Source of the DNA: Natrinema versiforme | GTDB lineage: Archaea; Halobacteriota; Halobacteria; Halobacteriales; Natrialbaceae | Direction of reading: 5' to 3' | Assembly: GCF_005576615.1 (NCBI RefSeq) | Contig: NZ_CP040330.1 | Span: 124,001-188,000, forward strand | Length of the DNA: 64,000 nt | Shown: piece by piece, positions 1,513 through 7,575 of the stretch | How the letters are laid out: the number at the start of each line of letters is the position of its first letter | Position numbering within the stretch: the first letter of the stretch is position 1 | Notes under the pieces: model-generated | Told to the model about the DNA's origin: nothing | Seen by the model: only the letters and a program-made list of their open reading frames with translations | The model's database searches: none | Made by a program: the position numbers and the translations under genes

Positions 1513-1631
1513 ATGCTGGCCCCTTGGCGGCGGCGGGGGAATTGTCTTTTCATCCGGGCGAGTCGCCGGTTCGGCCCGTTTCGGCGGCTGCCACCCCCAG
1601 TCCCTTGGGCCTCGGCGGCGTAGTGGTTCCG

Positions 1632-3974
1632 ATGGACGACCACGACCACCGATCCGAGGACGGCTCGGAGACGGCCGATACCGGTCCTGGCGACGATCGG
1701 ACCGATCGGACGAAGGAGTCGCTGCTCGAGGACGAGGCCGACGACGCCGAACGGGGGCGAGACGAGATCCGCGACCGGCACGAACAGGGGGAGGCCCGCG
1801 CCGGTCACGGTACACGCAGCCCGGACGGTCACGACGCCGGCGGTGCTCACGGTGATAGCGGTCACGAAGACGGCGGAGACGGCAGGCACGGCGACCACGG
1901 TGGCGGCATGCACGCCGGTCACGAAACGATGTTCCGACGGCGGTTTTTCGTCTCCGTGCTGCTCTCGGTTCCCGTCTTGCTCTACAGCGAGACGCTGCAG
2001 GACTGGCTCGGCTTTTCGATGCCGGCGTTTCCCGGCAGCGAGTGGCTCACCCCCGTCTTCGCGGTGATCGTCTTCGCCTACGGCGGGGTTCCCTTCCTCA
2101 GAATGGCCGTTCCGGAACTACGCGACCGCGCGCCCGGGATGATGACGCTCATCTCGATGGCGATCACCGTCGCCTTCGTCTACAGCCTCGCGAGCGTCGT
2201 CGTCCCCGCAGAGTCGGCCTTCTTCTGGGAACTCGTGACGCTGATCGACATCATGCTGCTCGGCCACTGGATCGAAATGCGCTCGGTTCGGCGGGCCTCG
2301 AGCGCGCTGGACGAACTGGCGAAACTGATGCCCGACACCGCCGAGCGGATCACGGACGATGGCGAGACCGAGGCGGTTCCGGCGAGCGAACTCGAGGAGG
2401 GAGACCTCGTCCTCGTCCGGCCCGGCGCGAGCGTGCCGGCCGACGGCGTCGTCGAGGACGGCGAGTCGGACGTCAACGAGTCGATGATCACCGGCGAGTC
2501 GACGCCGGTTTCGAAGGGACCCGACGACGAGGTTATCGGCGGAACGGTCAACGGCGACGGCAGCCTCCGGGTGCGGATCAGCGCGACGGGCGAGGAGACG
2601 ACCCTGGCCGGCATCATGCGGCTGGTCGAGGAGGCGCAGGGTAGCGAGTCCCGGACGCAGGCGCTGGCCGACCGCGCGGCGGGCTGGCTGTTCTACGTCG
2701 CCCTCGGTGCGGCCGTCGTCACGGCGATCGCGTGGACGATCGCGACGGGATTCGATTCGGCGGTGATCGAACGCGTCGTCACCGTCCTCGTCATCGCCTG
2801 CCCGCACGCCCTCGGGCTGGCGATCCCCTTGGTGGTCGCGATCAACACCTCGCTGGCCGCGCGCAACGGGATGCTCGTCCGGGACCGAATCGCGATGGAG
2901 CGGGCCCGGACCCTCGATACCGTCGTCTTCGACAAGACCGGGACGCTCACCGAGGGCGAACAGGGCGTGGTCGATATCGCGACCGTCGACGGCGTCTCCG
3001 CGGACGAGGCGATCGCGCTGGCGGCCACCGTCGAGGGCGACTCCGAACACATGATCGCCCGAGCGATCCGCGAGGCGGCCGACGAGCGCGGCCTCGAGCG
3101 GGGAACTGCTACCGATTTCGAGGCGCTGAAAGGCAAAGGGGTTCGCGCGACGGTCGACGGGGCGGCGCTCCGCGCCGCCGGACTGTCTCGCGGCGACGAG
3201 CCGCGAGACGGGGAGCGAGTCTACGTCGGCGGGCCGAACTTGCTCTCGGAACTCGAGGGCGACGTTCCGGCGGCGCTCGAGCGATTTGCCGACAGAGCCG
3301 GTGAGAACGCGCAGACGGTCGTTTATGTAATCCGCGAGGGCGAGCAGATCGCCGCATTCGCGCTTGCGGACGTGATCCGCGAGGAGAGCTACCGGGTCGT
3401 CGACGCGCTCCACGAACTGGGACTCGAGGTGGCGATGCTGACCGGGGATTCCGAAGACGTGGCTCGAGCGGTCGCGGCCGATCTCGGGATCGACACGGTC
3501 TTCGCCGAGGTGTTGCCCGAGGACAAGGACGAGAAGATCACGGAGCTACAGGAGCAGGGCAAAACCGTCGCGATGGTCGGCGACGGGGTCAACGACGCGC
3601 CGGCGCTCACCAGAGCCGACATCGGCATCGCGATCGGGAGCGGGACGGACGTGGCCGTCCAGTCGGCGGACATCATCCTCGTCAAGAACAATCCGATGGA
3701 CGCGGTCCGACTCGTCAAGTTGAGTCGCGCGAGCTACCGGAAGATGCAACAGAACCTCGTCTGGGCCGCGGGCTACAACGTCTTCGCGCTCCCGCTGGCG
3801 GCCGGCGTCCTCGCGCCGATCGGCATCCTCCTCTCGCCCGCGGTCGGCGCGTTGCTCATGTCGCTCAGCACGGTGATCGTCGCGATCAACGCGCAGTTCC
3901 TCCGCCGGACCGACCTCTCCGTGCCGAGCCTGTCGGGAGTTGCCGCGCCGCGGGAACCCCAGCCGGCTGACTGA
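1632..3974 (+). CDS. copB: Heavy-metal P1B-ATPase, CopB-like with CPH motif
   Basis: 780-residue membrane ATPase that exports a soft metal, probably copper or silver. The first 98 residues are histidine-rich (H4, H6, H50, H59, H67, H73, H78, H86, H89, H94, H97) in place of a CxxC metal-binding domain. TGES is the actuator loop, C390-P-H392 the membrane metal site, D434 in DKTGT the phosphorylated aspartate and [10 protein letters not shown] the hinge. CPH is the signature of CopB-type (P1B-3) pumps, while CPC marks CopA. The ATG at 1632 is chosen because an upstream extension (from 1524) overlaps the divergent hisG promoter. It lies convergent with a CopZ-like chaperone and 1 kb from CopA, making a two-pump copper island. 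I see no copy of the copper-island palindrome in the 119 bp in front of it. Confidence 0.93.
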
Positions 3975-3978
3975 CACT

Positions 3979-4176
3979 CTACGCCGACGCGTCGTAGCCG
4001 GCCTCGTCGACCGCGCGAACCAGTTCCTGCGGGTCCGCGTCGCCGTCGACGGTGGCCCGCTCCGCCTCGCGGTCGACGTCGACCGATTCGACGCCCGAGA
4101 CGCCCTCGAGTGCGTCTTCGACGGTCTGTTCGCAGTGTTCACAGGACATGCCTTCGACGGTGATGGTTCGACTCAT
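3979..4176 (-). CDS. copZ: CopZ-like copper chaperone (HMA domain)
   Basis: 65-residue single heavy-metal-associated domain: MSRTITVEGMSCEHC gives the beta-alpha-beta fold with the metal-binding GMSCEHC motif, and the C-terminus carries the family's AGYD turn. Such proteins carry Cu(I) in the cytosol and hand it to the N-terminal HMA domains of CopA. The reading frame is open upstream to 4257, but that extension lacks HMA similarity and covers the regulatory palindrome, so the ATG at 4176 is used. It is divergent from the AsnC/TRASH regulator and its stop lies 4 bp past the copB stop. Joint control with the regulator through the shared intergenic region is likely (inference). Confidence 0.92.
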   Translation of the reverse strand: MSRTITVEGMSCEHCEQTVEDALEGVSGVESVDVDREAERATVDGDADPQELVRAVDEAGYDASA

Positions 4177-4213
4177 AGTGGACCATAGGGGCGTCCGGTC
4201 TTTGTGCGTTACT

Positions 4214-4260
4214 GCTTTCGATGGTAACGCGATCGGAGGATCAGCTTTCGATTCCAAAGC
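4214..4260. promoter_or_regulatory. Candidate copper-regulator operator
   Basis: Between the divergent chaperone and regulator genes lies GCTTTCGA-T-TCCAAAGC (4244-4260), a 17-bp palindrome with 7 of 8 arm positions matched. The half-site GCTTTCGAT is repeated 30 bp upstream (4214-4222), about three helical turns away. The palindrome ends about 8 bp before a TATA-like CTATATTC (4268-4275) that sits a normal distance from the regulator ATG at 4303. A closely matching palindrome precedes copA. Role inferred. Confidence 0.55.
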
Positions 4261-4302
4261 GACGGTCGCTATATTCTTTGCTCCTGCGTTCGAACCGGAC
4301 GT

Positions 4303-4890
4303 ATGCGCGACCTCGATGAGACCGATATGCAGATCCTGCGGCTGCTGGGCGAGGATGCCCGCCGGCCGTACAGCGAAATCGCCGAGCGCGTCGACCTCTC
4401 CGGACCCGCCGTCTCCGACCGCGTCCAGCGCCTCGAGGAGGCGGGCGTTATCAACGGCTTCACCGTCGACGTGGACCAGTCACAGCTCCGGGCGGGGGTG
4501 CCGGTGTTCGTCCGGGCGACCGTTCCCGCGGCTGCCGTCGACGACTGCAGAGCGGCCGTCGCGGATTCCGACGCCGTCGAACACGTGTTCGTCACCGCCG
4601 ACGGCGAAATCTGGTTCTACGCCCGCGCACAAGTCCAGCGCGTCCGCGAGTGGCTCGAGGGACTCCTGCCCGCCGACGGCGTCGAGTACGACGTGACGCT
4701 GGTCGACGACGCGGAGTGGACGCCCTCGCTCGAGGGGACGCAGTTCGCGCTCACCTGCGCGGAGTGTGGCAATACGGTCGACAGCGAGGGCGAGTCGACT
4801 CGAATCGATAGCGAGGTGTACCACTTCTGCTGTCCGTCCTGTCGAGGCCGGTTCGAAGATCGGTACGACCGGTTCGAGGCGGGCGCCTGA
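4303..4890 (+). CDS. Lrp/AsnC-family copper regulator with TRASH domain
   Basis: 195 residues. Residues 3-60 form an AsnC-type helix-turn-helix (DETDMQILRLLGEDAR...GPAVSDRVQRLEEAGVI). Residues 62-135 are a short RAM-like ligand domain. Residues 150-190 are a TRASH metal-binding knuckle with C152-x2-C155 and C176, C177, C180. The architecture is that of the Halobacterium copper-responsive Lrp-TRASH regulator that controls the yvgX copper ATPase (established knowledge). It sits between the chaperone and CopA genes, with a TATA-like CTATATTC about 30 bp upstream of the ATG, suggesting a nearly leaderless mRNA. It probably senses Cu(I) through the TRASH cysteines and activates or derepresses copA and copZ. 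The palindromes at 4244 and 4890 are candidate binding sites. Confidence 0.92.
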   Translation: MRDLDETDMQILRLLGEDARRPYSEIAERVDLSGPAVSDRVQRLEEAGVINGFTVDVDQSQLRAGVPVFVRATVPAAAVDDCRAAVADSDAVEHVFVTADGEIWFYARAQVQRVREWLEGLLPADGVEYDVTLVDDAEWTPSLEGTQFALTCAECGNTVDSEGESTRIDSEVYHFCCPSCRGRFEDRYDRFEAGA

Positions 4891-4906
4891 CTTTCGACTC
4901 GAAGGT
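4890..4906. promoter_or_regulatory. Candidate copper-regulator operator upstream of copA
   Basis: ACTTTCGA-C-TCGAAGGT is a 17-bp palindrome with 7 of 8 arm positions matched, starting at the last base of the regulator stop codon and 68 bp before the copA ATG. Over the 15 bp core it matches the 4245-4259 site at 12 positions. No strong TATA element is obvious between it and copA; a degenerate third copy (TTTCGATCAGCAAAG, near 4931-4945) lies closer to the gene. Confidence 0.55.
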
Positions 4907-4974
4907 TCTCGGCCCCGCACAGTTTGGATTTCGATCAGCAAAGGGGGTAAGACGGGAGCCCCTACTAGTTACCA

Positions 4975-7575
4975 ATGAGTACCCGGACCGCACACGTGGA
5001 CATCCGGGGCATGAGCTGTGCGAACTGTTCGCAGACGATCAGCGAGGCCCTGGAGTCCCGAGACGGCGTGGCGGAAGCGACCGCCAACTTCGCGACCGAC
5101 GATGGAACCGTCGAGTACGATCCCGAGACGATCTCGCTGGCCGAGATCTACGAGGCGATCGACGAGGCCGGCTACGAAGCCGACCGCGCGAGTCGCTCGA
5201 TCGGGATCACGGACATGAGCTGTGCGAACTGCGCCGAAACCAACGAGGCTGCCCTCGAGGACGTACCCGGCGTCATCGACGCGGAGGTCAACTACGCCAC
5301 CGACGAGGCGACCGTCGAGTACAACCCGTCGGACGTCTCGCTCGAGGCCCTCTACGCGGCCATCGAGTCGGCCGGCTACACGCCGGTCCGCGACGAGGGC
5401 GACGCGGAGGAGTCGGATCAGGATCGGCGCAACGCGGCCCGGCAGGCCGAGATCCGCAAACAGCGCCGGCTGACGATCTTCGGCGCGGTGCTTTCGGCCC
5501 CGTTCCTGTTCTTCCTCGCCGACACGTTCCTGCTCGGCGGGACCTACGTTCCGGAGACGGTCTTCGGCGTCTCCTTCGGCTGGGTCGAGTTCCTGCTCGC
5601 CACCCCGGTCTACGTCCTGCTGGGCCGCGAATTCCTCGAGAACTCCTACACAGCGCTTGCGAAGAACCGGACCGCCAACATGGACGTGCTGATCGCGCTC
5701 GGCTCCTCGACGGCGTACCTCTACAGCCTCGTGGTCCTGCTGGATCTGCTGGCGGGCAATCTCTACTTCGACACCGCCGCGATGATCCTCGTGTTCATCA
5801 CGCTGGGGAACTACCTCGAGGCGCGTTCGAAAGGACAGGCGAGCGACGCCCTCCGGAAACTCCTCGAGATGGAGGCCGAGACGGCCACGCTGGTCGACGA
5901 GGACGGGACCGAACGGGAGGTCGACCTCGAGGACGTCGCGGTCGGCGACCGGATGAAAGTCCGGCCCGGCGAGAAGGTGCCGACGGACGGCGTCGTCGTG
6001 GACGGCCAGTCCGCGGTCGACGAGTCGATGGTCACCGGCGAGTCCGTCCCCGTCGAGAAGGAGGCGGGCGACGAGGTGATCGGCTCGACGATCAACGAGA
6101 ACGGCGTACTGGTCGTCGAGGCGACTAAGGTCGGCTCGGACACGGCCCTGCAGGGGATCGTCCAGACCGTCAAGGAGGCCCAGTCGCGCCAGCCGGACAT
6201 CCAGAACCTCGCCGACCGCATCTCGGCGTATTTCGTCCCCGCGGTCATCCTCAACGCCCTGTTCTGGGGGCTCGTCTGGTTCCTCTTCCCCGAGGCGCTC
6301 GCGGGTGTCGTCGACGCGGTGCCCGTGCTGGGGCTGGTCGGCGGCGGCCCCGCGGTCCTCTCGAAATTCGAGTTCGCGGTCGTCGTCTTCGCCTCCGCGG
6401 TGCTGATCGCCTGTCCCTGCGCGCTGGGGCTCGCCACGCCCGCCGCGACGATGGTCGGTTCCACGCTGGGCGCACAGAACGGCGTCCTGTTCAAGGGCGG
6501 CGACGTGCTCGAGCGGGCACGAGACGTCGATACCGTCGTCTTCGACAAGACCGGCACGCTGACGACCGGCGAGATGACGCTGACCGACGTGGTCGCGCTT
6601 GAGGCTGACGGCGATCGAGCAGCCGCTGACGGCGGCGAAACGGCGGCCGACGGCGGCGCGGTGGCGACTCGAGCGCGGCTCGACGAGAGCGAGGTGCTCC
6701 GTCTGGCCGCCAGCGCCGAGCGCAACAGCGAACACCCGCTCGCACAGGCTATCGCCCAGGGGGCCGAGGAACGCGGCCTCGAGCTAGCCGATCCCGAGGA
6801 CTTCGAGAACGTCCCCGGACAGGGCGTCCGGGCGACCCTCGAGGGCCGCGAGGTGCTGGTCGGCAACCGGCGGCTGCTCGAGGCGCGGGGCGTCGATCCC
6901 GCGCCCGCCGAAGACGAGATGGAGCGCCTCGAGCGCGAGGGCAAGACCGCGATGTTGGTCGCGGTCGACGGCGCGGTTGTGGGCGTGGTGGCCGACGCCG
7001 ACACTGTCAAGGAGAGTTCCGCCGACGCGGTCGGCGAACTGCGCGAGCGCGGTCTCGATGTCATGCTGATCACCGGCGACAACGAGCGGACGGCCCGCGC
7101 CGTCGCCGAGCGGGTCGGGATCGACCCCGACAACGTCCGGGCCGGCGTGTTGCCCGAGGACAAAGCCGACGCCCTCGAGGACATCCAGTCGACGGGCCGC
7201 AAGGCGATGATGGTCGGCGACGGGGTCAACGACGCGCCCGCACTCGCCGTCGCCCACGTCGGCACCGCTATCGGCTCCGGGACCGACGTGGCCATCGAGG
7301 CCGCGGACGTGACGCTGATGCGCGACGATCCGCTCGATGTTGTGAAGGCGATCCGCATCTCCGAGGCCACGCTGGCGAAGATCAAGCAGAACCTCGTCTG
7401 GGCACTCGGCTACAACACCGCGATGATCCCGCTTGCCTCGCTGGGCCTGCTCCAGCCAGTGCTCGCGGCCGGCGCGATGGCGTTATCGTCGGTGTCCGTG
7501 CTCTCGAACAGCCTGCTGTTCCGCCGGTACACACCGGACCGCGACTACGAACTGCTCGGCCGATTCCGCCGCTGA
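4975..7575 (+). CDS. copA: Copper-exporting P1B-1 ATPase CopA
   Basis: 866-residue Cu(I) export ATPase. Two N-terminal HMA domains carry GMSCANC (C15, C18) and DMSCANC (C83, C86). They are followed by the membrane region, the TGES actuator loop, the membrane Cu(I) motif C480-P-C482, D524 in DKTGT, a SEHPLA nucleotide-binding motif and [10 protein letters not shown]. An alanine/glycine/aspartate-rich insertion (about residues 543-563) lengthens the loop after the phosphorylation site. It uses ATP to push Cu(I) out of the cell, receiving it from the CopZ-like chaperone encoded at 3979. The start ATG follows the regulator gene by 84 bp, so copA could be read from its own promoter (palindrome at 4890) as well as through the regulator. 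Confidence 0.97.

Follow-up and report, generated by a model that had tools for sequence, protein, structure and literature searches.

Which protein reads the matching palindromes that stand in front of the copper genes of Natrinema versiforme? The genes lie in a 64-kb stretch of contig NZ_CP040330.1 (hereafter the window, to which all coordinates refer unless another contig is named), where a gene for an Lrp-TRASH regulator is set between a divergent copZ and copA. An earlier note had proposed two palindromes as the candidate operator of this regulator. The features which bear on the question are the following, the operator assignments being putative.

3979..4176, minus strand: copZ, HMA copper chaperone, 65 aa (Pfam HMA; NCBIfam CopZ_AFE_1862 above cut-off)
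4186..4213, minus strand: copZ core promoter (by sequence comparison; conserved in relatives)
4215..4229, unstranded: weaker operator site CTTTCGATGGTAACG (PWM score 10.0; 30-31 bp spacing peak)
4244..4260, unstranded: strong operator site, core 4245-4259 CTTTCGATTCCAAAG (PWM score 23.5, the best of the window; position kept in relatives)
4270..4275, plus strand: probable TATA-like box TATATT of the regulator promoter (by sequence and its position, -33 to -28)
4303..4890, plus strand: CopR-type regulator with AsnC-type helix-turn-helix (HTH), possible RAM-like fold and C-terminal TRASH domain (Pfam PF13404, PF24273; predicted fold, Foldseek)
4890..4906, unstranded: copA operator, distal site, core 4891-4905 CTTTCGACTCGAAGG (PWM score 16.4)
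4922..4936, unstranded: copA operator, proximal weaker site GTTTGGATTTCGATC (PWM score 10.2; 31-bp spacing peak)
4940..4964, plus strand: copA core promoter AAAGGGGGTAAGACGGGAGCCCCTA, putatively BRE/TATA-like with a poor TATA (conserved block 3' of the sites in relatives)
4975..7575, plus strand: copA, CPC-type Cu+-exporting P-type ATPase with two HMA domains (TIGR01511/TIGR01525)

Four palindromic sites in the copper gene cluster

The two palindromes, GCTTTCGA-T-TCCAAAGC (4244-4260) and ACTTTCGA-C-TCGAAGGT (4890-4906), were located correctly in the earlier note, and its description of them, with seven of eight arm positions paired in each and agreement at 12 of 15 core positions, holds on recalculation. 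The first is common to both divergent promoters, its centre lying at -76 from the copZ ATG and at -51 from the regulator ATG. The second is centred at -77 from the copA ATG, and it overlaps the regulator stop codon by a single base, its first. A repeat of GCTTTCGAT at 4214-4222 is also present, as had been reported; it is not a mere half-site, however, but the left-hand portion of a full, if degenerate, site (4215-4229; centre -46 from the copZ ATG, 30 bp off the strong site) which takes the form of a fuller palindrome in relatives, two loci being examples (CTTTCGATCCAAAAC in one of them). A fourth site, at 4922-4936 and centred at -46 from the copA ATG, had been missed. These two weaker sites are assigned as the proximal sites of copZ and copA, respectively, because their spacing and distances recur across loci. 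The copA and copZ core promoters next to them have in common the sequence AAGAC-N-GG-N2-GCCCCTA.

When dinucleotides were shuffled, both intergenic stretches contained a 17-bp palindrome with at least 7 of 8 pairs in 5 of 3000 trials (0.17%), and two such palindromes alike at 12 or more of 15 positions in none of the 3000. Scanned with a cross-species matrix built from regulator upstream regions, the four sites are four of the six top positions (score at least 10) in the window.

The end of a gene for a CPH-type (CopB-like) ATPase with a His-rich N-terminus (1524-3974) adjoins the 3' end of copZ. The matrix scan of the window gave no operator site upstream of this gene (best score 1.3); its control by the operator was rejected on this score, and the ATPase therefore seems to stand outside the CopR switch.

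A paired motif conserved across haloarchaea

The comparison covered 33 named orthologous loci and 292 haloarchaeal genomes, in which the gene order copZ - regulator - copA recurs across families. A de novo motif search by expectation-maximisation, with random seeds, on both strands and with no seed taken from the palindromes already described, was run separately on 44 non-redundant copA upstream regions and on 66 non-redundant regulator/copZ upstream regions. The same palindrome, aCTTTsGAwTCsAAAGt, emerged from both promoter sets, with log-likelihoods of about 360-420 as against 43-60 in shuffled sets. This consensus is palindromic over 15 bp around a single central A/T. With the matrix from regulator upstreams, a site scoring at least 10 is found in 67 of 71 non-redundant copA promoters and in 1.4% of shuffled promoters. 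Conservation is concentrated at the sites and the core promoter, the spacer retaining about 0.1-0.3 bit per base; the copA proximal site is weak and can barely be made out in some species.

The geometry is also fixed. In 61 of the 71 copA promoters the highest-scoring site has its centre at -72 to -88, and in six at -42 to -52. In promoters aligned on the best site, the spacing of the second site peaks at 31 bp for copA (62 promoters) and at 30-31 bp in the divergent copZ/regulator region. A distance of about 31 bp corresponds to three helical turns of B-DNA. In the window the sites lie 46 and 76 bp upstream of copZ, 46 and 77 bp upstream of copA, and 51 and 81 bp upstream of the regulator gene; the values found across loci group at 46-49 and 76-80 (copZ) and at 51-54 and 81-87 (regulator). 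Each target promoter has two sites, usually one strong and one weak, just 5' of a weak core promoter. The palindromes first described are real, but the operator unit is a pair about 31 bp apart rather than a single site.

Specificity for copper promoters

Within the whole 4.67-Mb genome, CTTTCGANTCSAAAG with at most one mismatch occurs only at the two palindromes of the window, a count which is circular, since the pattern was derived from both of them, but which shows specificity nonetheless. In 116 haloarchaeal genomes, CTTTSGAWTCSAAAG with at most one mismatch gave about 93 matches, against 38 for the reversed pattern (a tally made over 115 rows). The 75 matches listed were compared by hand with the positions of regulator and copA and with the fetched loci: 47 are at cop genes, nearly all at the expected distances, and five fell outside the check. 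Nine of the ten exact matches among those listed are at cop genes. About 23 of the 75 are near-matches located elsewhere, at genes for a solute-binding protein, a PAPS-reductase-domain protein, MFS and EamA transporters and unknown proteins. These have no common function, and a wider regulon was rejected; they are treated as chance occurrences because the excess over the reversed control approximates the number at cop genes. Thus, in both of the checks that the earlier note had proposed, the palindrome is kept in the cop promoters of relatives and its matches concentrate at cop genes.

A 492-kb contig of the same genome (C3:302145-302732 and flanks) holds copZ, regulator and copA once more as a complete cluster. 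Its products are 76% (copA), 62% (regulator) and 66% (copZ) identical to those of the window, and ATTTGGATTCCAAAG lies between regulator and copA, in the same place as in the window. Very similar regulator copies, about 62% identical to that of the window, occur in many other genera, and their recurrence suggests the spread of a mobile copper-resistance module. Near the second cluster, an extra copZ copy (C3:308341-308532) with two sites, ACTTGGAATCTAAAG and a weak one, at -79 and -47 is a probable additional CopR target. Elsewhere on this contig, CTTCGGAGTCCAAAG (C3:56099-56113) is found 42 bp before a gene for a 485-aa pyridine nucleotide-disulphide oxidoreductase, with a copZ-like gene and an HMA-type ATPase a few kb away; it could be a further target or a chance match. 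In two species of one genus, a palindrome (GTTTCGATTCGAAAG / ATTTCGATTCGAAAG) located 94 bp before unknown proteins of similar size (about 416-428 aa, no Pfam match) is perhaps the site of another regulator.

The regulator protein

The window regulator has an AsnC-type helix-turn-helix at its N-terminus (PF13404, E 6e-17; phmmer matches LrpC and LrpA) and a TRASH domain at its C-terminus (PF24273, E 5e-26). The recognition helix PAVSDR..RL and the TRASH cysteines (C152, C155, C176, C177 and C180 at least 95% conserved) are near-invariant among 70 homologues with identities as low as 46%, and the middle domain drifts. The latter has no Pfam AsnC_trans_reg match; in the predicted model (mean pLDDT 70) it shows the beta-alpha-beta-beta-alpha-beta order of RAM domains, and a Foldseek search with this model retrieved whole Lrp chains (E to 3e-8) with poor global superposition. 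The model thus points, with modest confidence, to an Lrp-like winged helix and a RAM-like fold. The regulator is found in 291 of the 292 genomes, the sole exception being also without a copA orthologue, and across families its gene is linked to those for the copper ATPase and the chaperone.

The site follows copA rather than the regulator gene

Thirteen non-redundant copA promoters belong to loci with an unlinked regulator gene: 11 still have their best site at -72 to -88, and two have no site at the expected place. Low scores are seen in a few others. In nearly all cases, an unlinked regulator gene is without a site in its own promoter. The site goes with the target copA rather than with the regulator gene.

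One of these genomes was assigned to Halobacterium salinarum by 100% bacteriorhodopsin identity. In its 2.4 Mb, the only match to the motif with at most two mismatches is CTTTCGAATCAAAAG, at -78 of copA (yvgX). A second, stand-alone copZ, which by elimination is probably VNG2581H, carries sites at -47 and -79. The regulator gene, VNG1179C, has no site in its own promoter, nor does the chaperone gene directly 3' of copA (probably VNG0702H) have a site of its own. In H. salinarum, yvgX and both chaperones are copper-induced, induction of yvgX requires VNG1179C, and VNG1179C mRNA is unchanged by copper (PMC3551603). Assuming that the downstream chaperone is co-transcribed with yvgX, the distribution of sites predicts this pattern, including which genes respond to copper through the regulator. 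Moreover, in Hfx. alexandrinus, where copA, lrp and copZ are adjacent, all three genes are silver-induced (PMC10694973), which fits a site shared by copZ and the regulator.

The direction of control is less clear. CopR of H. salinarum has been reported both as an activator (PMC3551603) and as a repressor (PMC5605881) of copA, and these reports disagree; sequence therefore does not settle the sign of control at each promoter. CopR of Pyrococcus furiosus represses its own gene.

Probable operator function and alternative readings

Taken with the retention of the site at unlinked copA genes, the computed sequence, conservation, fixed geometry and cop-promoter specificity argue for an operator function: CopR, the haloarchaeal Lrp-TRASH regulator (VNG1179C in H. 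salinarum), would be the protein that recognises the palindromes, a reading to which we give a probability of roughly 0.87. The earlier finding is right and can be stated more strongly than before: the copper regulator of haloarchaea would have an operator of paired sites throughout the class. We infer that CopR binds there, that copper governs its action, and in which direction each promoter is controlled.

CopR would occupy both sites, probably as dimers inside one Lrp-type octamer over which the DNA is bent. Once its TRASH cysteines have taken up Cu(I), bound CopR would aid TBP/TFB at the copA and copZ promoters. Between the divergent genes, the strong site stands at -51 relative to the regulator and at -76 relative to copZ and would serve both, so that a single occupancy could control the two. 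A more complete scheme, which is tentative and to which we give somewhat less than an even chance, is that of a class-wide phase-locked switch: a CopR octamer over two palindromes three turns apart would activate copA and copZ from an identical -46/-76 geometry and set its own level via the strong site at -51, autoregulation being lost and the copA switch kept where the regulator gene has moved.

The palindrome could be read by some other regulator of copper genes, such as another Lrp, ArsR or CopY-like protein, and many further Lrp/AsnC-like proteins are indeed encoded (13 more matches in this genome). However, the near-universal occurrence of the Lrp-TRASH regulator in haloarchaeal genomes, where the one exception lacks copA too, the requirement for VNG1179C in copA induction, the parallel between a near-invariant recognition helix and a near-invariant site, and a site size and position matching those of P. 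furiosus CopR sites (PMC7830388) make this improbable. It is very unlikely that the sites are instead part of the basal promoter (an extended BRE/TATA) or a structural DNA element kept for non-regulatory reasons: although the proximal site adjoins the conserved core promoter, the distal site, which is the most conserved block, lies about 35 bp upstream of it, and the clustering of exact matches at cop genes is not that of a general promoter feature. Chance palindromes in TCGA-rich haloarchaeal DNA, where such words abound (331 against 109 control matches at up to three mismatches in this genome), are a negligible explanation, rejected by the shuffles, the reversed-pattern control and the comparative data, namely the conservation of the sites, their fixed geometry and their occurrence with copA even where the regulator is unlinked.

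Comparison with known systems

Halobacterium copper efflux is a model system for archaeal regulation, and ChIP-chip of its regulator, CopR of H. salinarum, gave no usable recognition sequence: the de novo motifs were AT-rich and ambiguous, and a structure-based prediction was offered instead (PMC4177876). No paper with the haloarchaeal consensus strings was found in a literature search. With an operator defined and its geometry fixed, the mechanism can be tested directly through point mutations and altered spacing, and the regulon can be read from any haloarchaeal genome; compact copper-inducible promoters for haloarchaeal genetics would be a further gain.

The FL11/Lrp feast-famine operators have the consensus TGAAAWWWTTTCA. 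These operators (2E1C) are likewise short palindromes, occupied by dimers of Lrp and spanned several at a time by octamers, much as proposed for the haloarchaeal sites; they differ in their consensus and in responding to amino-acid effectors. VNG1179C of H. salinarum (PMC3551603, PMC5605881, PMC4236453) is an orthologue, 50% identical, with the same targets, copA and the chaperones; unlike in the window, its gene is unlinked to copA and without its own site.

A defined case had escaped the earlier note, which knew of no binding sequence for an Lrp-TRASH protein: the CopR operator of P. furiosus, TTNNCAWWWTGNNAA, is a 15-bp semi-palindrome directly upstream of the copA BRE (PMC7830388). There too, a regulator with Lrp-type HTH and TRASH domain is encoded beside copA and controls both copA and its own gene, with several contacts about one helical turn apart (PMC7830388). 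An odd-centred palindrome of about 15 bp just upstream of the copA core promoter is likewise common to both, with haloarchaeal centres at -77 and -46. However, the haloarchaeal CTTTsGAwTCsAAAG does not conform to the Pyrococcus consensus, differing at its defining C/A and T/G positions; moreover, the haloarchaeal operator comprises two fixed-position sites separated by 31 bp, and it has a third target in the divergent copZ. Between Thermococcales and haloarchaea, it seems, the operator of an ancient regulator took on another sequence and kept its size and position.
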